Assembly: GCF_008831285.2 (NCBI RefSeq)
Contig: NC_045144.1
Location: forward strand, 20,661,716 to 20,725,715
DNA: 64,000 nucleotides
Direction: 5' to 3'
DNA from: Nymphaea colorata
Taxonomy: Eukaryota > Streptophyta > Magnoliopsida > Nymphaeales > Nymphaeaceae
How positions within the stretch are numbered: the first letter of the stretch is position 1; the number at the start of each line of letters is the position of its first letter. The position numbers were made by a program, and so were the translations under genes. Below, in pieces: positions 5,343 through 45,506 of this stretch. The notes beneath the pieces are model-generated. The model searched no databases. It was not told the origin of the DNA and was given only the letters and a program-made list of their open reading frames with translations.

Positions 5343-5402
5343 CAGCAGAAGAAAAGGAAATCATGGAACCAATTTCAAAAAGACGACACTTGTGTAACAT
5401 AC

Positions 5403-6483
5403 CATGGAGTCCCCATTCCATAGTCTGCTACGTCTGTATGGATATAAGCAGTCATCTCTTTCGACAATCGCTCTGCCCATCTCCCGTATTTCATCATGCA
5501 TTTCAAACTGTCCATCACTGGTAATCTTGATTAAGGATCTGCGCTGCAGGGTTTGAATAGACAAATGAGGGAAAAGATGGCCATCGTCCCACGTATAAAA
5601 TGGTGCTGCTTTATCTATTTTATAAATCAAACGAGCGATATCTAGAAATATTTGCTGTTCTTTCTTTTCTAACCCATTATAGCTTATTCTTAGTCTTTCA
5701 TGGATCATTTTGTGTTGATTTTCCTGTAATTCTCTCAACAGCTTTCTCCATCCTTTTGCGCAATGTACGCCAGAAAATAGTGAACCGAATACTTCAAGGA
5801 TCAACGGTATGCCGTTGGTGGTTTGCACAACTCCTTTAGATAATTCCTTCAGCTTTGCTGTTGGCTCATCCTTGCCAAAAGCATGGCAACAGAACAGTTC
5901 AAGAGACTGTGTCTCGCTCAAACGTTTAACCGGGTAAACACATTGCCTTTCCACACTGGCTTTGCTCAGGACTTGCTGGTATCTGGAGGTGACAATGATT
6001 TTGCTTTTTGGGCTGAGCCATTCTTGTCTGCAGGCGAATGCGTCGAGTTGCTTTTCATCATCAAGAGCAAGAAGGATAACCTTTCCGTCCATGAGTTCCT
6101 TGATCCTCTTGCACCCAGCACTCGGGTCAAGTATCTGAGGCTCACGCGATCGTGAAAGTTGCCGAATGAGTTGGTTTTGCAAGGAGATGAGTCCATTACG
6201 TTGAGCACAAACCTCCCTTATATTTGAGATGAAGCTGCAAAATTCGAAGTTTGGTGAAATCTTGTTGAAAATGGCTTTGGCAAGCGTCGTCTTCCCGATG
6301 CCTCCACTGCCGTGGATGCCTACCATTCTCGCACCGTTCTCTTCCTCCACATCTATTAACTCCATCAATTCTTTGATACGGTTGTTGATTCCAATAAACT
6401 GGTATTTGCCAACATCCAAGTCATTCTCGCGTAGCACTCCAAAAATCCTTCTCGCAATCATTTCAATGAGCTCCGCCTCATGC
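5403..6483 (-). pseudogene. NB-ARC exon of a truncated TIR-NB-ARC gene (no LRR)
   Basis: This is the second exon of the gene that begins at 8,001. An acceptor (TTACCAG) precedes base 6,483. Joined to the TIR exon, it reads ATETQ-G-HEAELIEMI, the usual TIR/NB-ARC junction. NB-ARC motifs are in order: P-loop GSGGIGKTTLA, Walker B-like ILLALDDEKQLD, RNBS-B IIVTSR, a weakened GLPL motif (GIPLIL), and MHD (EMHDEIREMG). The arrangement ends RSRLWNGDSM at a GTATGT donor (5,402). The exon itself has no stop or shift over about 360 codons. Downstream there is only a TA tract and another TIR relic, so LRR exons are missing. Plant TN proteins lacking LRRs exist, but the first exon is broken here. This would be a nucleotide-dependent immune switch if expressed. 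Confidence 0.85.
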
Positions 6484-7061
6484 CTGGTAAATTAAGACCG
6501 CGTCAGTAAATTCTGGAAGACAGGCTAAAACTTGACAAGGTTTCAGGGCAGCAGAAAATCTCTTTCTCCGGAACCATCTTTTTACTTTTAATTTGGATTC
6601 TCTTTGGGCGATAATTCGAACGCACGGTACCTATAATTTTGAAATAGCTTCATTTTCAGGGCTACCTTCTGTACATAAGGTCACATAGACAAAAAAAAAA
6701 AAAACAAAAGTTTGCTCTTGTTAAAATATAAATAGCCTCAGCTTTTCTTAACTTCAAAAGTGCAGGTGGATTTTCTTTAACTTCAAAAGCAAGAAAATAT
6801 AAATAGCCTCAGCTTTTCAACCGATACTTTTTTTGAAATAATATGATCGTTCAAAGTTTTACAACCGACATATAAGCGCTCAAGGTTTCTTCTGCCTGTA
6901 GATTAAAAAACATGAAATTAGAAGGATAATTTATTAAATTAAATTCTTTAAAAACAATAAAAAATTGGAAAAGGAAGGACCGTTACAAGACAACGAACGG
7001 ACTTCCTTTTTATTGACACGCGGTATTTTGGTCATATATTTAACTTTCTTGGCACCAGACA

Positions 7062-7102
<41 letters not shown>

Positions 7103-7177
7103 TTCATAGTGGCTTCATTTAATGCATATGAGAGAAGAAACATCCAACACAAGAGATGGTATGAGAGACAAATGTAC

Positions 7178-8001
7178 CCCTGGGTCTCTGTTGCAAGAGA
7201 ATAACCTAAAAAGTCTGATGCTCGCCGCAATGCGTCCCTCCATTCACTTACAGTCTCCTCGCTCAACCTCTTATCGTTCACGTGACGCTGAAATGCATCT
7301 TCGTATTGTCCCCTTTGATTCCTAACGTCGGCAGGCTCGACGTCGAAGTACACTGGAAGGATCAACCTTTTCGTCTCCACCGCCTTGGCAACCTCCTTCT
7401 GGCACCACCACAATTGAGCATAGCGTCTTGAGAAGATGGGCACAAAAATCTTCGATTTCACAATGTATCCAAGCATGTCCTCGATCTGATCTCCCTTTTG
7501 AAGCCTTTCGTCCATGAAGGTGCGAATCCCTCCTACTTCCAGTGCTGCGCAGAGATGGCCGGCGAAAGTGTTCCCCGTGTCTTCCACAATGAAACTGAGG
7601 AACACATCAATTTGGTAGACCCTCCCGCTTCTTCCCGATGATGCTTCCCTTTCGTTTGAATGCCATGATGATTGTCCTTGAAATGCTCCACTTTCAAATG
7701 ATGCTGGTGCCGGACATGGCGACTGCTCCACGTCTTCAATATTCCAGGCCTCTTCTTCATTGGACCCCGACTGGAATACCCCCCTAGTAAGTATAGACAA
7801 CGATGATGCTGGTGTCTGACAAGGCGATTGCTCCGTGCCTTCATATCGGCCATCTCTTTCCTCAGACCCTCTGATTCGCCAGCTAGAATCCCTTCACTGC
7901 AGAATCTCCTTTCTGAGAACCAGAGCTATAATGATGACGCTGAGAACCACAAGAAACCCCAAAAAAATGAGGAGCACCGCCAGGGGAAACGCGGCCATCA
8001 T
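7178..8001 (-). pseudogene. Signal-anchor plus TIR exon, interrupted by an in-frame stop
   Basis: Two adjacent ATGs (8,001 and 7,998) open a frame with a strongly hydrophobic segment of about 25 residues (FPLAVLLIFLGFLVVLSVII), an N-terminal membrane anchor. The frame then meets TGA at 7,894-7,896. Without shifting, it runs on through a Ser/Pro/Gln-rich linker into a TIR domain: IDVFLSFIVEDT, YIVKSKIFVPIF, WWCQKEV (catalytic-type Glu kept), LPVYFDVEPADVR and EWRDALRRASDFLGY. The exon ends at 7,178 before GTACAT. The linker contains a repeated EQSPC-x-x-PAS unit. An anchor ahead of a TIR domain is known in flax L6-type TNLs. After the TGA there is no Met before the TIR core, so the gene looks dead unless the stop is spliced out or miscalled. 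The usual RGEDTR is changed to IVEDTG. Confidence 0.8.
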
Positions 8002-23669: not shown

Positions 23670-24064
23670 TCAATAAGTTGACGCAGTAGTGCCGGAGAAG
23701 AGAGTCCGATTGGAAGGAAAGGAGAGAGACCAGGTTTCGCCTGCAGAGAACTCAAGAACCTTTTTCTTATAAACGTCAGTGAAGTTTTATTAGGTAAAAC
23801 GTTCTCCCATTGGGTTGAACGTGACATCAGATTTACTGGCAATGCATTCAGCGGAAGAAGTGGATGAATAGAGGAGCGCAAGCGAGGGAGGGGAGAGGAG
23901 ATTGTCCTCTTCACTTCACCGTGGGAGTCGTCATTGATTTTAGCGGGCCCGAAACGGAAGAGGGGGAGTGAAATAAATGGATGTCCAGTTAGCCTCCTTC
24001 GTTTTTCAAATTAGTACGCCACTTGGTGGGGCACAGCTTGAGCGCTGACAATTAGTGGAAGGGA
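23670..24064. other. Flank between HMA relic and satellite array
   Basis: Purine-rich and GC-richer than its surroundings, with no reading frame of interest. Similarity to the other HMA copies ends near 23,690. Confidence 0.5.
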
Positions 24065-27000
24065 GCCCTCTGCACAAAATAAGAATACCGAGACGTGTAA
24101 AAGACGTGTAAAGGTTGTCTGCATGTTAGCAAATCTAACATTATGTTGCTCAATTAAATTGATAGAAACAACCTTCGAATTACAGTGTTGCTCAATCTCC
24201 AACATTCCAAGACCCCCCATTCAAAAAACTCTTCGTTTCTTTCTTTCATGTTCCATCAACTTCTCTGCTCTCCAAATGGGATAGCACATTCCCCTGCTTT
24301 ACCACCCCTCTCTGTCTCCTCCAGTTGACTGTCAGAATATACAAGCACCTAAAAACAGAGGGCCACAGCCTTCCTGCATCAGTAGTAAAGCCAAAAAATT
24401 CCTAGTAAACGAGGACACTTATACTTCAAATTTTAAACCTTTAGAAGATTTTTCCTGTCATGCTAGAGCTTTCGGGGGATTCAACGATCGAATCAACTTG
24501 CTGAATGTTGGTATTGATTATCCTAAACCAAAATTCGGTCATCAAAATCAAAACGCTCACAAAACAGCAAGTCCATTTACCGTCACGCCCCACTCTCCTG
24601 TTGCTACTTTGAGATTTTCGGGCTGATCAAGCCAGCCCTCTGCACAAAAGAAGAATACCAAGACGTGTAAAGGTTGTCTGCGTGTTGGCACATCTAACAT
24701 TATGTTGCTCAATTAAATTGTAGAGACAACCTTCAAATTACAGTGTTGCTCAATCTCCAACGTTCCAAGTCCCCCCATTCAAAAAACTCTTCGTTTCTTC
24801 CTTTCATGCTGCACCGACTTCTCCGCTCTCCAAATGGGATAGCACATTCCCCTGCTTTACCACCCCTCTCTGTCTCCTCCAGTTGACTGTCAGAATATAC
24901 AAGCACCTAAAAACAAAGGGCCACAGCCTTCCTGCATCAGTAGTAAAGCCAAAAAATTCCTAATAAACGAGGACACTTATACTTCAAATTTTAAACCTTT
25001 AGAGGATTTTTCCTGTCATGCTAGAACTTTCAGGTGATTCAACGATCGAATCAACTTGCTGAAGGTTGGTATTGATTATCCTAAACCAAAATTCGGTAAT
25101 CAAAATCAAAACGCTCACAAAACAGCAAGTCCTTTTACCGTCACGCCCCACTCTCCTTTTGCTACTTTGAGATTTCCTGGTTGATCAAGCCAGCCCTCTG
25201 CACAAAAGAAGAATACCAAGACGTGTAAAGGTTGCCTGCGTGTTGGCACATCTACCATTATGTTGCTCAATTAAATTGTAGAGACAACCTTCAAATTAGA
25301 GTGTTGTTCAATCTCCAACGTTCCAAGACCCCCCATTCAAAAAACTCTTCGTTCCTTCCTTTCATGCTGCACCGACTTCTCCGCTCTCCAAATGGGTTAG
25401 CACATTCCCCAACTTTACCACCCCTTTCTGTCTCCTCCAGTTGACGGTCAGAATATACAAGCACCTAAAAACAGAGGGCCACAGCATTCCTGCATCAGTA
25501 GTAAAGCCAAAAAATTCCAAGTAAACGAGGACATTTATACTTCAAATTTTAATCCTTTGGAGGATTTTTCCTGTCATGCAAGAGCTTTCGGAGGATTCAA
25601 CGACCAAACCAACTTGCTAAAGGTTGATATTGATTATCCTAAACCAAAATTCGGTCAGCAAAATCAAAACGCTCACAAAACAGCAAGTCCTTTTGCCATC
25701 ACGCCCCACTCTCCTTTTGCTACTTTGAGATTTCTTGGCTGATCAAGCTAGCCCTCTGCACAAAAGAAGAATACCAAGACGTGTAAAGGTTGCCAGCGTG
25801 TTGGCACATCTAACATTATGTTGCTCAATTACATTGATAGAGACAACCTTCAAATTACAGTGTTGCTCAATCTCCAACATTCCAAGACCCCCCCATTCAA
25901 AAAACTCTTCGTTCCTTCCTTTCATGCTGCACCGACTTCTCTGCTCTCCAAATAGGATAGAACATTCCTCTGCTTTACCACCCCTCTTTGTTTCCTCTAG
26001 TTGACGGTCAGAATATACAAGCACCTAAAAACAGAGGGCCACAGCCTTCCTGTATCAGTAGTAAAGCCAAAAAATTCCTAGTAAACGAGGACACTTATAC
26101 TTCAAATTTTAAACCTTTAGAGGATTTTTCTTGTCATGCTAGAGCTTTCGGGGGATTCAACGATCGAACCAACTTGCTGAAGGTTGGTATTGATTATCCT
26201 AAACCAAAATTCGGTCATCAAAATCAAAACGCTCACAAAACAGCAAGTCCTTTTACCGTCACGCCCCACTCTCCTTTTGTTACTTTGAGATTTCCTGGCT
26301 GATCAAGCCAGCCCTCTGCACAAAAGAAGAATACCAAGACGTGTAAAGGTTGCCTACGTGTTGGCACATCTAACATTATGTTGCTCAATTACATTGTAGA
26401 GACAACCTTCAAATTATAGTGTTGCTCAATCTCCAACGTTCCAAGACCCCCCATTTAAAAAACTCTTCGCTCCTTCCTTTCATGCTGCACCGACTTCTCC
26501 GCTCTCCAAATGGGTTAGCACATTCCCCTGCTTTACCACCCCTTTCTGCCTCCTCCAGTTGACGGTCAGAATATACAAGCACCTAAAAACAGAGGGCCAC
26601 AGCCTTCCTGCATCAGTAGTAAAACCAAAAAATTCCTAGTAAACGAGGACACTTATACTTCAAATTTTAAACCTTTAGAGGATTTTTCTTGTCATGCTAG
26701 AGCTTTCGGGGGATTCAACGATCGAACCAACTTGCTGAAGGTTGGTATTGATTATCCTAAACCAAAATTCGGTCATCAAAATCAAAACGCTCACAAAGCT
26801 GCAAGTCCTTTTACCGTCACGCCCCACTCTCCTTTTGCTACTTTGAGATTTCCTAGCTGATCAAGCCAACCCTTTGCACAAAAGAAGAATACCAAGACAT
26901 GTAAACGTTGCCTGCATGTTGGCACATCTAACATTATGTTGCTCAATTACATTGATAGAGACAACATTCAAATTACAGTGTTGCTCAATCTCCAACATTC

Positions 27001-30000
27001 CAAGACCCCCCATTCAAAAAACTCTTTGTTCCTTCCTTTCATGCTGCACCGACTTCTCTGCTCTCCAAATTGGATAGCACATTCCCCTGCTTTACCACCC
27101 CTCTCTGTCTCCTCCAGTTGACGGTCAGAATATACAAGCACCTAAAAACAGAGGGCCACAGCCTTCCTTTATCAGTAGTAAAGCCAAAAAATTCCTAGTA
27201 AACGAGGACACTTATACTTCAAATTTTAAACCTTTAGAGGATTTTTCCTATCATGCTAGAGCTTTCGGGGGATTCAACGATCGAACCAACTTGCTGAAGG
27301 TTGGTATTGATTATCCTAAACCAAAATTCGGTCATCAAAATCAAAACTCTCACAAAACAGCAAATCCTTTTACCGTCACGCCCCACTCTCCTTTTGCTAC
27401 TTTGAGATTTCCTGGCTGATCAAGCCAGCTCTCTGCACAAAAGAAGAATACCAAGACGTGTAAAGGTTGCCTGCGTGTTGGCACATCTAACATTATGTTG
27501 CTCAATTACATTGTAGAGACAACCTTCAAATTACAGTGTTGCTCAATCTCCAACGTTCCAAGACCCCCCATTCAAAAAAACTCTTCGTTCCTTCCTTTCA
27601 TGCTGCACCGACTTCTCCACTCTCCAAATGGGTTAGCACATTCCCTTGCTTTACCACCCATTTCTGTCTCCTCCAGTTGACGGTCAGAATATACAAGCAC
27701 CTAAAAATAGAGGGCCACAGCCTTCCTGCATCAGTAGTAAAGCCAAAAAATTCCTAGTAAACGAGGACATTTATACTTCAAATTTTAATCCTTTAGAGGA
27801 TTTTTCCTGTCATGCAAGAGCTTTCGGGGGATTCAACGACCAAACCAACTTGCTAAAGGTTGGTATTGATTATCCTAAACCAAAATTCGGTCAGCAAAAT
27901 CAAAACGCTCACAAAACAGCAAGTCTTTTTGCCGTCACGCCCCACTCTCCTTTTGCTACTTTGAGATTTCTTGGCTAATCAAGCCAGCCCTCTGCAAAAA
28001 AGAAGAATACCAAGACGTGTAAAGGTTGCCTGCGTGTTGGCACATCTAACATTATGTTGCTCAATTACATTGATAGAGACAACCTTCAAATTACAGTGTT
28101 GCTCAATCTCCAACATTCCAAGACCCCCCCCATTCAAAAAACTCTTCGTTCCTTCCTTTCATGCTGCACCGACTTCTCTGCTCTCCAAATGGGATAGAAC
28201 ATTCCCCCGCTTTACCACCCCTCTCTGTCTCCTCCAGTTGACGGTCAGAATATACAAGCACCTAAAAACAAAGGGCCACAGCCCTCCTGCATCAGTATTA
28301 AAGCCAAAAAATTCCTAGTAAACGAGGACACTTATACTTCAAATTTTAAACCTTTAGAGGATTTTTCATGTCATGCTAGAGCTTTCGGGGGATTCAACGA
28401 TCGAACCAACTTGCAGAAGGTTGGTATTGATTATCCTAAACCAAAATTCGGTCATCAAAATCAAAACGCTCACAAAACAGCAAGTCCTTTTACCGTCACG
28501 CCCCACTCTTCTTTTGCTACTTTGAGATTTCCTGGCTGATCAAGCCAGCCCTCTGCACAAAAGAAGAATACCAAGACGTGTAAAGGTTGTCTGCGTGTTG
28601 GTACATCTAACATTATGTTGCTCAATTACATTGTGGAGACAACCTTCAAATTACAGTGTTGCTCAATCTCCAACGTTCCAAGACCCCCCATTCAAAAAAC
28701 TCTTCGTTCCTTCCTTTCATGCTGCACCGACTTCTCCGCTCTCCAAATGGGTTAGCACATTCCCCTGCTTTACCACCCCTTTCTGTCTCCTCCAGTTGAC
28801 GGTCATAATATACAAGCACCTAAAAACAGAGGGCCACAGCCTTCCTGCATCAGTAGTAAAGCCAAAAAATTCCTAGTAAACGAGGACACTTATACTTCAA
28901 ATTTTAAACCTTTAGAGGATTTTTCCTGTCATGCTAGAGCTTTCGAGGGATTCAACGATCGTACCAACTTGCTGAAGGTTGGTATTGATTATCCTAAACC
29001 AAAATTCGGTCATCAAAATCAAAACGCTCACAAAGCTGCAAGTCCTTTTACCGTCACGCCCCACTCTCATTTTGCTACTTTGAGATTTCCTGGCTGATCA
29101 AGCCAGCCCTCTGCACAAAAGAAGAATACCAAGACGTGTAAAGGTTGTCTGCATGTTGGCACATCTAACATTATGTTGCTCAATTACATTGATAGAGACA
29201 ACCTTCAAATTACAGTGTTGCTCAATCTCCAACATTCCAAGACCCCCCCCATTCAAAAAACTCTTCGTTCCTTCCTTTCATGTTGCACCGACTTCTCTGC
29301 TCTCCAAATGGGATAGAACATTCTCCTGCTTTACCACCCCTCTTTGTCTCCTCCAGTTGGCGGTCAGAATATACAAGCACCTAAAAACAGAGGGCTACAG
29401 CTTTCCTGCATCAGTAGTAAAGCCAAAAAATTCCTATTAAACGAGGACACTTATACTTCAAATTTTAAACCTTTAGAGGATTTTTCCTCTCATGTTAGAG
29501 CTTTCGGGGGATTCAACGATCGAGCCAACTTGCTGAAGGTTGGTATTGATTATCCTAAACCAAAATTCTGTCATCAAAATCAAAACGCTCACAAAGCTGC
29601 AAGTCCTTTTACCATCACGCCCCACTCTCCTTTTGCTACTTTGAGATTTCCTGGCTGATCAAGCGAGCCCTCTGCACAAAAGAAGAATACCAAGACGTGT
29701 AAAGGTTGCCTGCATGTTGGCACATCTAAAATTATGTTGCTCAATTACATTGATAGAGACAACCTTCAAATTACAGTGTTGCTTAATCTCCAACATTCCA
29801 AGACCCCGCATTCAAAAAACTCTTCGTTCCTTCCTTTCATGCTGCACCGACTTCTCTGCTCTCCAAATGGGATAGCACATTCCCCTGCTTTACCACCCCT
29901 CTCTGTCTCCTCCAGTTGACGGTTAGAATATACAAGCACCTAAAAACAGAGGGCCACAGCCTTCCTGCATCAGTAGTAAAGCCAAAAAATTCCTAGTAAA

Positions 30001-33000
30001 CGAGGACACTTATACTTCAAATTTTAAACCTTTAGAGGATTTTTCCTGTCATGCTAGAGCTTTCGGGGGATTCAACGATCGAACCAACTTGCTGAAGGTT
30101 GGTATTGATTATCTTAAACCAAAATTCGGTCATCAAAATCAAAACGCTCACAAAGCTGCAAGTCCTTTTACCATCACGCCTCACTCTCCTTTTGCTACTT
30201 TGAGATTTCCTGGCTGATCAAGCCAGCCCTCTGCACAAAAGAAGAATACCAAGACGTGTAAAGGTTGCCTGCGTGTTGGCACATCTAACATTATGTTGCT
30301 CAATTACATTGTAGAGACAACCTTCAAATTACAGTGTTGCTCAATCTCCAACGTTCCAAGACCCCCCATTCAAAAAACTCTTCGTTCCTTCCTTTCATGC
30401 TGCACCGACTTCTCTGCTCTCCAAATGGGATAGCACATTCCCCTGCTTTACCACCCCTCTCTGTCTCCTCCAGTTGACGGTCAGAATATACAAGCACCTA
30501 AAAACAGAGGGCCACAGCCTTCCTGCATCAGTAGTAAAGCCAAAAAATTCCTAGTAAACGAGGACACTTATACTTCAAATTTTAAACCTTTAGAGGATTT
30601 TTCCTGTCATGCTAGAGCTTTCGGGGGATTCAACGATCGAACCAACTTGCTGAAGGTTGGTATTGATTATCCTAAACCAAAATTCGGTCATCAAAATCAA
30701 AACGCTCACAAAGCTGCAAGTCCTTTTACCGTCACGCCCCACTCTCCTTTTGCTACTTTGAGATTTCCTAGCTGATCAAGCCAGCCCTTTGCACAAAAGA
30801 AGAATACCAAGACATGTAAACGTTGCCTGCATGTTGGCACATCTACCATTATGTTGCTCAATTACATTGATAGAGACAACATTCAAATTACAGTGTTGCT
30901 CAATCTCCAACATTCCAAGACCCCCCATTCAAAAAACTCTTTGTTCCTTCCTTTCATGCTGCACCGACTTCTCTGCTCTCCAAATTGGATAGCACATTCC
31001 CCTGCTTTACCACCCCTCTCTGTCTCCTCCAGTTGACGGTCAGAATATACAAGCACCTAAAAACAGAGGGCCACAGCCTTCCTTTATGAGTAGTAAAGCC
31101 AAAAAATTCCTAGTAAACGAGGACACTTATACTTCAAATTTTAAACCTTTAGAGGATTTTTCCTATCATGCTACAGCTTTCGGGGGATTCAACGATCGAA
31201 CCAACTTGCTGAAGGTTGGTATTGATTATCCTAAACCAAAATTCGGTCATCAAAATCAAAACGCTCACAAAGCTGCAAGTCCTTTTACCGTCACGCCCCA
31301 CTCTCCTTTTGCTACTTTGAGATTTCCTGGCTGATCAAGCCAGCCCTTTGCACAAAAGAAGAATACCAAGACGTGTAAAGGTTGCCTGCATGTTGGCACA
31401 TCTAACATTATGTTGCTCAATTACTTTGATAGAGACAACATTCAAATTACAGTGTTGCTCAATCTCCAACATTCCAAGACCCCCCATTCAAAAAACTCTT
31501 CGTTCCTTCCTTTCATGCTGCTCCGACTTCTCTGCTCTCCAAATTGGATAGGACATTCCCCTGCTTTACCACCCCTCTCTGTCTCCTCCAGTTGACGGTC
31601 AGAATATACAAGCACCTAAAAACAGAGGGCCACAGCCTTCCTGCATCAGTAGTAAAGCCAAAAAATTCCTAGTAAACGAGGACACTTATACTTCAAATTT
31701 TAAACCTTTAGAGGATTTTTCCTGTCATGCTAGAGCTTTCGGGGGATTCAACGATCGAACCAACTTGCTGAAGGTTGGTATTGATTATCCTAAACCAAAA
31801 TTCGGTCATCAAAATCAAAACGCTCACAAAGCTGCAAGTCCTTTTACCGTCACGCCCCACTCTCCTTTTGCTACTTTGAGATTTCTTAGCTGATCAAGCC
31901 AGCCCTTTGCACAAAAGAAGAATACCAAGACGTGTAAAGGTTGTCTGCATGTTGGCACATCTAACATTATGTTGCTCAATTACATTGATAGAGACAACAT
32001 TCAAATTACAGTGTTGCTCAATCTCCAACATTCCAAGTCCCCCCATTCAAAAAACTCTTCGTTCCTTCCTTTCATGCTGCTCCGACTTCTCTGCTCTCCA
32101 AATTGGATAGGACATTCCCCTGCTTTACTACCCCTCTCTGTCTCCTCCAGTTGACGGTCAGAATATACAAGCACCTAAAAACAGAGGGCCACAGCCTTCC
32201 TGCATCAGTAGTAAAGCCAAAAAATTCCTTGTAAACGAGGACACTTATACTTCAAATTTTAAACCTTTAGAGGATTTTTCCTGTCATGCTAGAGCTTTCG
32301 GGGGATTCAACGATCGAACCAACTTGCTGAAGGTTGGTATTGATTATCCTAAACCAAAATTCGGTCATCAAAATCAAAACGCTCACAAAGCTGCAAGTCC
32401 TTTTACCGTCACGCCCCACTCTCCTTTTGCTACTTTGAGATTTCCTAGTTGATCAAGCCAGCCCTTTGCACAAAAGAAGAATACCAAGACATGTAAAGGT
32501 TGCATGCATGTTGGCACATCTAACATTATGTTGCTCAATTACATTGATAGAGACAACATTCAAATTACAGTGTTGCTCAATCTCCAACATTCCAAGACCC
32601 CCCATTCAAAAAACTCTTTGTTCCTTCCTTTCATGCTGCACCGACTTCTCTGCTCTCCAAATTGGATAGGACATTCCCCTGCTTTACCACCCCTCTCTGT
32701 CTCCTCCAGTTGACGGTCAGAATATACAAGCACCTAAAAACAAAGGGCCACAGCCTTCCTTTATGAGTAGTAAAGCCAAAAAATTCCTAGTAAACGAGGA
32801 CACTTATACTTCAAATTTTAAACCTTTAGAGGATTTTTCCTATCATGCTAGAGCTTTCGGGGGATTCAACGATCGAACCAACTTGCTGAAGGTTGGTATT
32901 GATTATCCTAAACCAAAATTCGGTCATCAAAATCAAAACGCTCACAAAGCTGCAAGTCCTTTTACCGTCACGCCCCACTCTCCTTTTGCTACTTTGAGAT

Positions 33001-33175
33001 TTCCTGACTGATCAAGCCAGCCCTCTGCACAAAAGAAGAATACCAAGACGTGTAAAGGTTGTCTGCATGTTGGCACATCTAACATTATGTTGCTCAATTA
33101 CATTGATGGAGACAACCTTCAAATTACAGTGTTGCTCAATCTCCAACATTCCAAGACTCCCCATTCAAAAAACTC
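24065..33175. repeat. Tandem satellite array, about 559-bp unit, 16.3 copies
   Basis: Using GCCCTCTGCAC as phase mark, units begin at 24,065, 24,635, 25,193, 25,751, 26,311, 26,869, 27,428, 27,987, 28,548, 29,106, 29,667, 30,226, 30,784, 31,343, 31,902, 32,461 and 33,020. Spacing is 558-561 bp, except the first (570, with an 11-bp internal duplication at 24,100). The last unit breaks off at 33,175 in the middle of the CAAAAAACTCTT motif. Units differ by scattered substitutions and single-base indels. Subfamilies are marked by ATTGTAGAG versus ATTGATAGAG, and by ACAACATTC in 26,869 and 30,784-33,019. One frame of about 100 codons stays open in nearly all units (see findings), but no unit has a convincing gene structure. 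No similarity to a known satellite was recognised. Confidence 0.97.
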
Positions 33176-43548: not shown

Positions 43549-43669
43549 CTAGGGTGCAAGCAACTTCACATATCTAGATGTATCCACTGTCACCCGTACT
43601 GCTTGAAGGCGTTGCTCTCCAGCTGCTTCGATCTCCATATGCAGTTGATTGCCGGGCGCCGCATCAGTC
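43549..43669 (-). other. eRF1 3'UTR exon with an open readthrough frame
   Basis: A pyrimidine-rich tract ending AAATGCAG places an acceptor just before 43,669. If joined to a donor at 44,115 (GTAATT), the frame of eRF1 continues from its UAG through 25 codons, across the junction, and 40 more codons (MTDAAPGNQL...) to TAG at 43,549. If joined to the stronger-looking donor at 44,131 (GTGAGA), it runs 20 plus 26 codons to TGA at 43,590. Unspliced, it stops at TAA 44,112-44,114. Either intron (446 or 462 bp) lies more than 55 nt after the normal stop, which marks a transcript for NMD. No transcript data are available, so the splice sites are inferred. Confidence 0.6.
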
Positions 43670-44186
43670 CTGCATTTGAACAAGTTAAAAGCAGACATAC
43701 GATAATGCAATGATTGCATGCCATCCGATGCTGATAGGGAAAAAACATAAAGCACATCATGAAACTAAACATGAGTTTTTAGCATGTAAAATACAGTCAT
43801 TTATTGACAGAAGATAAAAGGGATTTAATTGAACACAGAGCAAGAAATGTAAACGTTTAAAAAGGAAAATTAAGGGATCAAAAGGTCGTGGCTTCGGCGA
43901 AAACATCAGAAAAGACAATCATCCTCCAAAAGGTGTCATGCGCCAGGCCTGCCCTAAAAAGGTTCACTTGATTACGGAGCACATAAACTATAGAATCATC
44001 AAGGAATCCAAACCTCATCTAGCAATATATGCAAACCTATTTCACAGAAAAAACAAATAGAGAGAACAAACTAACACATAAGAACAAGCTAGAGAATTTT
44101 GAGTTTTGAAATTACATCACAAGCATCTCACGGCAACCAAAGCCTGGGCGAGCACAGGGAGCTCCGCACGAGCCCTCTGGATAAAT

Positions 44187-44195
44187 TGATTGCTA
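44187..44195 (-). promoter_or_regulatory. Leaky-stop context at the end of eRF1
   Basis: On the minus strand the stop and next two codons read TAG CAA TCA. This matches UAG-CARYYA, the tobacco-mosaic-type readthrough signal. It sits on the gene for the factor that decodes the stop, which suggests dose-dependent feedback. Confidence 0.8.
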
Positions 44196-45506
44196 GTCTG
44201 AATCTTCATATACTTCTCCATCATCAGATATGTCATCGAATGACCTTATGTCAAGCTGATAGCGAAGAATTCCACCAATACCACCAAACCCTCGACAAAA
44301 CTGGGACCCTTCTTGAGATTTGTTGGTAACAAACTCTAAGGTGCAGCCAAACCGCTTGTATTCATGGGCAAACCACTCCAAGAGAGATGTTTTCTCTTGA
44401 ACTTCCAGCTCTGCACCAGAAGACAGATCGCGAAAGTTATTCTGGTCAGACTCTTGTTCTTTGTTCAAATGCTTTATGACAATATCTCCGGACACACTGT
44501 TCTTGAGCACATATCTGTTGACATCCAGGTTCTCCCACACGATCAGTGTCTCGACTGCACCCATCTCCAAAGTCTTGAGGGTGTCTTCAACTCCAAACAC
44601 ATACTTCCCCGTGTCTTGGCTTATCTCCTCAAAATATTTCCCTATCAGCTTTTTCTCCTGGATAAACTTCACATTTGAGAGTATCTCAGCTGATAGTTCA
44701 ATAGCCTGATTAAAGCCATTTTCCCCTCCATAAGATACATCAACCACATTCAATATCTTTGCCTGGAGACGGGGATCAAACATATCTGACTGACTCAACT
44801 CTGTCTTGAAATCAGCAGAACCAGCCAATATCAACCCTGAAACATTAGGCTGGCTGGTAGCAGGATTTATGAAGAACTGTGCAGCAAGTTCTGCTGTTTT
44901 CCTAACATAATTATGCCGCTTCTCCATCCGAAGACGAGCAAACCGCAGAGCAGACTGCCCTCCTCTGCCATGTTTTTTGGGAAGGTCCACTGTGAACTTG
45001 TGAAGCACCTCACGTGTATTACCACTTAACGTCCCAAAAAGAGTACCATTACCATCCATGACTATGAAACCAAATTTATCATCAGATTCCAGAAGTTCAT
45101 TCAGAGCTTCAGTATGGAACTTGTTGTCACACAGATAAAGGGAAGCATTGATGGGTTTGAAAGGCTCAAAATCAATTGTAACCTTCTTTTCTTTCCCATC
45201 TTCAGTCACAATAGTTCCTGTATACAGAACCAATCCATTTGGAGGAACCTTATTGTAAAGTTTAAGCCTCTGCTGAGCAGATGTGATGGCTCCCAACACA
45301 GATTGCCGATTCACTCTACTCTTGATGTTTGATGCAGTCCCAAACTCATCGCCTAACATCTTAGTAACCCGAGCTATTTGATCTCTTGGCGGCATTATCA
45401 AAGAGATCATGCTGGTGCCATTGCCACGAGCAGACTCCAGTGCCTTAATTAATTTCTTGATCTTCCATATTTCAATATTCTTATCAGTTTCATGTCCATC
45501 AGCCAT
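44193..45506 (-). CDS. eRF1: Eukaryotic peptide chain release factor subunit 1 (eRF1)
   Basis: An intact 437-residue protein, the usual plant eRF1 length. It recognises all three stop codons in the ribosomal A site and triggers peptidyl-tRNA hydrolysis together with eRF3. The stop-recognition domain shows GTASNIKS (56-63) and YLCDNKF (124-130). The catalytic GGQ is at 182-184 within [17 protein letters not shown]. The C-terminal eRF3-binding domain ends in an acidic tail ([14 protein letters not shown]). The start chosen is [10 protein letters not shown] (45,506). An upstream in-frame Met lies in intron sequence, since ATGCAG/GGAAC at 45,530 is a splice acceptor. The coding region has no intron. 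The stop is TAG followed by CAATCA, the UAG-CARYYA readthrough context. A 3'UTR intron follows, and a 5'UTR intron of about 3.4 kb precedes. Plant eRF1 is reported to autoregulate by readthrough and NMD. Confidence 0.98.

Follow-up and report, generated by a model that had tools for sequence, protein, structure and literature searches.

An eRF1-1 type gene of Nymphaea colorata with a probable readthrough and nonsense-mediated decay switch

The Arabidopsis gene eRF1-1 is reportedly governed by an autoregulatory circuit of readthrough and nonsense-mediated decay (NMD; Nyiko et al. 2017, NAR 45:4174), and eRF1 of Neurospora crassa is likewise said to be autoregulated, by readthrough together with 3'UTR-intron NMD (Kurilla et al. 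2020, FEBS Lett). In one review, cited here for its passage on this gene, eRF1 is the first readthrough example in Arabidopsis, the intron lies far downstream of the stop codon, and readthrough gives way to NMD when eRF1 levels are high (PMC11062462). The relevant passage of a degradome paper gives Arabidopsis eRF1-1 a CARYYA motif at its first stop, a second stop downstream and an intron more than 50 nt past the first stop, and it reports that the mRNA is raised in upf1-1 and with cycloheximide, and that readthrough rescues it only partially (PMC6755094). Ribosome profiling returned zero footprints in the extension of Arabidopsis eRF1-1, and the excerpt in which this is stated still accepts the earlier demonstration (PMC9293766). 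For Aethionema arabicum eRF1-1, the extract that mentions the gene puts an intron 124 bp beyond its stop (PMC8641386).

We consider it probable that an eRF1-1 type gene of Nymphaea colorata, encoded on the minus strand of a 64-kb stretch of DNA (the whole of which is referred to here as the window), carries this known readthrough/NMD autoregulatory switch. The gene shows eRF1 identity, the stop context, plausible splice sites and a frame that is open for four donor/acceptor pairs (Table 1), and is thus a probable further example of the Arabidopsis circuit. Splicing, NMD, readthrough and dependence on eRF1 dose would, by analogy with Arabidopsis, work together in the following way. Most ribosomes would halt at the UAG, and the junction complex of the 3'UTR intron, being far enough downstream, would flag the mRNA for NMD. 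The CAAUCA context would allow a minority of ribosomes to read through and, their frame continuing beyond the junction, these could remove the junction complex and so partly protect the mRNA. Abundant eRF1 would make termination at UAG more efficient, leading to less readthrough and to decay of the mRNA. A preliminary description of this DNA, which itself named the precedent in plants, had proposed readthrough/NMD autoregulation as the model, and this agrees with the Arabidopsis eRF1-1 circuit as set out in the published passages (PMC11062462, PMC6755094, PMC9293766).

Table 1. Coordinates of the eRF1 gene and of the putative switch elements in the window
Feature	Position	Strand	Basis
eRF1 CDS, single exon, 437 aa, ending ...GEVYEDSD	44193..45506	minus	Pfam and PDB matches; start, stop and length checked
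Stop codon TAG	44193..44195	minus	End of eRF1 frame
CAATCA, matching the CARYYA readthrough consensus	44187..44192	minus	Directly after TAG
3'UTR exon A to donor 44131, 61 nt, 59% GC; extends to 44116 with donor 44115	44132..44192	minus	Splice-site scan, GC
Probable 3'UTR intron, donors 44131/44115, acceptors (last base) 43731/43670; lengths 462, 446, 401 or 385	43670..44131	minus	Site scores
Alternative acceptor TTATGTTTTTTCCCTATCAG, last base 43731	43712..43731	minus	Outscores 43670
Exon B stretch of long frame, 39 whole codons TDAAPGNQ...KLLAP, common to 65- and 80-residue models	43552..43669	minus	
Second in-frame stop TAG, 65- and 80-residue models	43549..43551	minus	
Second in-frame stop TGA, 46-residue model	43590..43592	minus	
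Second in-frame stop TAA, 40-residue model	43685..43687	minus	
In-frame TAA, closes readthrough after 26 residues if intron retained or donor downstream of 44115	44112..44114	minus	

That the gene codes for eRF1, as the preliminary description had held, is borne out by both Pfam and PDB. The protein, searched minus its initiator Met, gave eRF1_1, eRF1_2 and eRF1_3, all above the Pfam cut-offs, and its top PDB match is 8ip8_bl, 'eukaryotic release factor 1', from an entry that we take to be a wheat ribosome. This alignment reaches the last residue of 8ip8_bl, which has the same VYEDSD ending. TAG 44195..44193 is therefore the normal end of translation, and the stop with its following hexamer, TAG CAA TCA, is read directly from the minus strand at 44195..44187, just as had been described.

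The foremost rival to the switch is that the mRNA is an ordinary NMD target by virtue of its 3'UTR intron, or that this intron has some other role in expression, the CARYYA being a chance occurrence or an inactive relic and readthrough not being coupled to decay. This is unlikely in our view, and the hexamer itself speaks on both sides of it. CARYYA is common in DNA, with 282 occurrences on both strands of the window (shuffles average 330), or about one per 450 strand-positions, and TAGCARYYA occurs six times where 4.6 are expected. Yet the chance of finding it after one pre-specified stop is about 1 in 450, and here it falls on the stop of the same type of gene in which it has been shown to work. 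A structured readthrough stimulator at the stop was also considered and rejected: the 73 nt comprising nine before the stop, the stop and 61 after it fold at -23.2 kcal/mol, no better than shuffles (z -0.83; 36/200 shuffles as good).

For the 3'UTR intron, splice sites were scored with a model built from 21 introns that a GT-AG spliced aligner placed in seven of this genome's actin genes. Donor scoring was restricted to intron positions +3 to +6, the exon side being left out because actin codons fix the exon-side bases. In the known circuit the stop and the intron are over about 50 nt apart; sequence scores give plausible GT..AG sites here at 61 nt (donor 44131, GCC/GTGAGA) and 77 nt (donor 44115, GAT/GTAATT), the shorter distance being close to the NMD threshold of ~50-55 nt. 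The intron-side scores are 1.44 for 44131 (13 of the 21 real donors at or below it) and 1.04 for 44115 (10/21), and both sites are poor on the exon side, where position -1 is C or T. Pairing with U1 makes 44131 the preferred donor (-4.7 kcal/mol vs -1.4 for 44115). The highest intron-side score among ten window donors belongs to a rival, 44075 (GTTAGT; 2.55, 20/21), and donors 44169 (2.16, 17/21) and 44071 (1.56, 13/21) also score well. Donor 44169 lies only 23 nt past the stop, which is too near for the intron rule, and donors 44075 and 44071, at 117 and 121 nt, pair weakly with U1 (-1.1 and -0.6) and would pull a stretch of 27.5% GC (44115-44076) into an exon that is 59% GC from the stop to 44132.

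Among the acceptors, 43731 scores 6.84 bits (18 of the 21 real acceptors score no higher) and 43670 scores 1.01 (7/21). From exon A the GC content drops to 35.5% in the intron, rises to 58% in the first 77 nt past 43670, and is 44% over the next 41 nt and 39% from there on to 43300, a profile that fits exon/intron/exon. Between the two acceptors it is 38%, and this low value, together with the 58% after 43670, favours 43670 over 43731, contrary to the site score. A candidate intron starting near 44131-44115 is likely. The preliminary description had put donors 61-77 nt after the stop and predicted introns of 446 or 462 bp; such sites do exist (44131/44115 to 43670), but its exact choice of sites is not supported: the better-scoring acceptor 43731 had been missed, and donor 44075, further down, would close the frame.

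The predicted extension depends on the pair of sites used. With donor 44131 it comprises 80 residues (acceptor 43731) or 46 (acceptor 43670), and with donor 44115 it comprises 40 or 65, respectively, the frame running 179, 77, 43 and 118 nt past the junction. The frame is thus open across the junction for 4/4 of these pairs, and it is open in 10/10 of a wider set, in one case by 3 nt only. When 11 GT donors were tried with acceptor 43670, the frame crossed the junction in five (44169, 44137, 44131, 44115 and, by 3 nt only, 44120) and closed before or at it in the other six (44155, 44085, 44077, 44075, 44071 and 44067), donors 44075 and 44071 leaving it to end 39 and 43 nt short of the junction. 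The TAA at 44114..44112 overlaps donor 44115, and the unspliced extension has 26 codons. The statement that the frame stays open past the junction accordingly stands for the donors originally named, 44131 and 44115, and fails for six of the 11, including the well-scoring 44075. Of 2000 shuffles, 11% keep 46 codons free of stops and 2% keep 65; when exon B is shuffled, 6.8% of the shuffles stay open over 39 codons. The open frame alone is weak evidence; its being only mildly improbable, and its closing before the junction with donor 44075, would suit an uncoupled intron behind a chance CARYYA. The open frame and the stop context gain weight over chance from the demonstration that these elements work in the Arabidopsis eRF1 gene.

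A natural contrast exists within the same genome. The genome search found one further intact plant eRF1 (G000:C2:26278296-26279585), 85% identical, whose stop is TGA CATGCG (L005 2596), not CARYYA, and which has a candidate 3'UTR intron of its own. Its candidate donors, 42 nt (GAG/GTGCAG) and 82 nt (CTG/GTAAAA) after the stop, pair well with U1 (-5.9 and -5.3) and score low on the intron side (2/21 each), and its acceptor, ending 474 nt past the stop, is very strong (21/21). Were the 42-nt donor used, its intron would lie within the 50-nt rule. That this gene has a plausible 3'UTR intron but lacks the leaky stop means that such an intron need not imply a switch, which again favours the chance-context explanation. 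The zero footprints in the Arabidopsis eRF1-1 extension, as the excerpt reports them (PMC9293766), also count against the switch reading, as does the unremarkable folding around the stop. The remaining rival, in which the 3'UTR is left unspliced, the mRNA being polyadenylated with no junction after the stop and readthrough ending at the TAA 26 codons on, would accommodate the weak exon sides, the U1 values of both donors and the 26-residue unspliced extension, but is highly improbable given the shifts in GC near the proposed borders, acceptors within the range of real actin ones, and the 3'UTR introns that the cited passages assign to eRF1-1 of Arabidopsis and Aethionema (PMC6755094, PMC8641386).

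Other eRF1-like sequences were found in the assembly. A broken tandem copy (G000:C2:26269284-26270442; L004 1285-2443) precedes the intact paralogue on C2 by ~8 kb and consists of three matching pieces, two of them with internal stops; immediately beyond these pieces the copy ends with TGACAAGCA. When the 3'UTRs of the eRF1 copies were compared, only short matches at chance level were obtained, the best (E 0.45) being to this broken copy, and the idea that the two plant genes have homologous 3'UTRs was rejected, since these align no better than chance. A short fragment at C2:8969016 matches PF03465, and a scan of viral contigs for eRF1 gave four pattern matches and zero relatives. A further eRF1 match (G000:C78:29032-30324; L008) is a ciliate gene and points to ciliate contamination in the assembly, in keeping with an aquatic plant. 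With TAA and TAG taken as Gln, three adjacent long frames on C78, one of them this eRF1, stay open across 3, 1 and 1 such codons; the first frame presumably resembles a MORN-repeat protein, and the ciliate eRF1 reads AAQIKDK where plant eRF1 reads TASNIKS. Contig C104 (G000:C104:19177-20326) carries actin, with three matches and nine in-frame TAA/TAG.

Elsewhere in the window, a tandem array of ~559 bp units (558-561), with neighbours 97-99% identical in places, occupies 24064-33164; it was missed by Tandem Repeats Finder because the longest period was 500. On the minus strand at 5361-7800 are TIR and NB-ARC frames belonging to a resistance-type gene of the TNL class, which also has a Roq1-like winged-helix domain; such frames speak against a monocot.

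The C-terminal extension that the proposed switch would produce is most simply a by-product of ribosomes passing the junction. Codon usage was judged against a small training set of four sequences from the same genome (two eRF1 copies, an Arm-repeat gene and an NB-ARC reading frame). Coding-like usage was seen in the 39 exon-B codons of the 65/80 frame, a level reached by 0.005 of open shuffles, and the full 65- and 80-residue extensions give 0.045 each. The 20 exon-A codons give 0.80, and what exon B contributes to the 46 frame gives 0.55; the 46-residue frame as a whole was rejected as coding sequence, its codon usage being equalled by 0.79 of open shuffles and so carrying no signal. The value of 0.005 comes from one of six tests and is therefore suggestive only, so that the codon usage of the 39 exon-B codons is a hint only of coding. 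A Pfam search of the 46- and 65-residue extensions gave zero matches. The earlier suggestion that the extension may be more than a by-product is not supported beyond this weak hint, and we regard it as very unlikely that the 39 post-junction codons (TDAAPGNQLHMEIEAAGEQRLQAVRVTVDTSRYVKLLAP, in the 65- and 80-residue variants) are selected as a functional tail altering eRF1 activity or stability. Were that so, readthrough would spare the mRNA and also yield a modified release factor.

The mechanism itself is already known, from Arabidopsis, and the Nymphaea gene is very likely another example, so that the gain is modest. Its significance lies in the reach of the cis-elements of the eRF1 switch to Nymphaea colorata, whose lineage was among the earliest to diverge within the flowering plants; this would point to a circuit already present in the ancestor shared by all living angiosperms. 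None of the titles listed by the literature searches, which did not pair the species with eRF1 and covered few subscription papers, reports the circuit in a water lily. Of the described systems, Neurospora crassa eRF1 is alike by the title of its report, readthrough and 3'UTR-intron NMD acting on its own mRNA, and differs in being from a fungus. Aethionema arabicum eRF1-1 also has a 3'UTR intron past the eRF1 stop, at a distance, in the extract that gives it, of 124 bp as against 61-77 nt. Closest is Arabidopsis eRF1-1, which shares with the Nymphaea gene an eRF1 CDS, CARYYA at the stop, a 3'UTR intron (probable in Nymphaea) at a distance of over 50 nt, and a second in-frame stop beyond the junction, predicted in Nymphaea for the likeliest splice pairs; the species is a different one, and the predicted Nymphaea distance is 61-77 nt.
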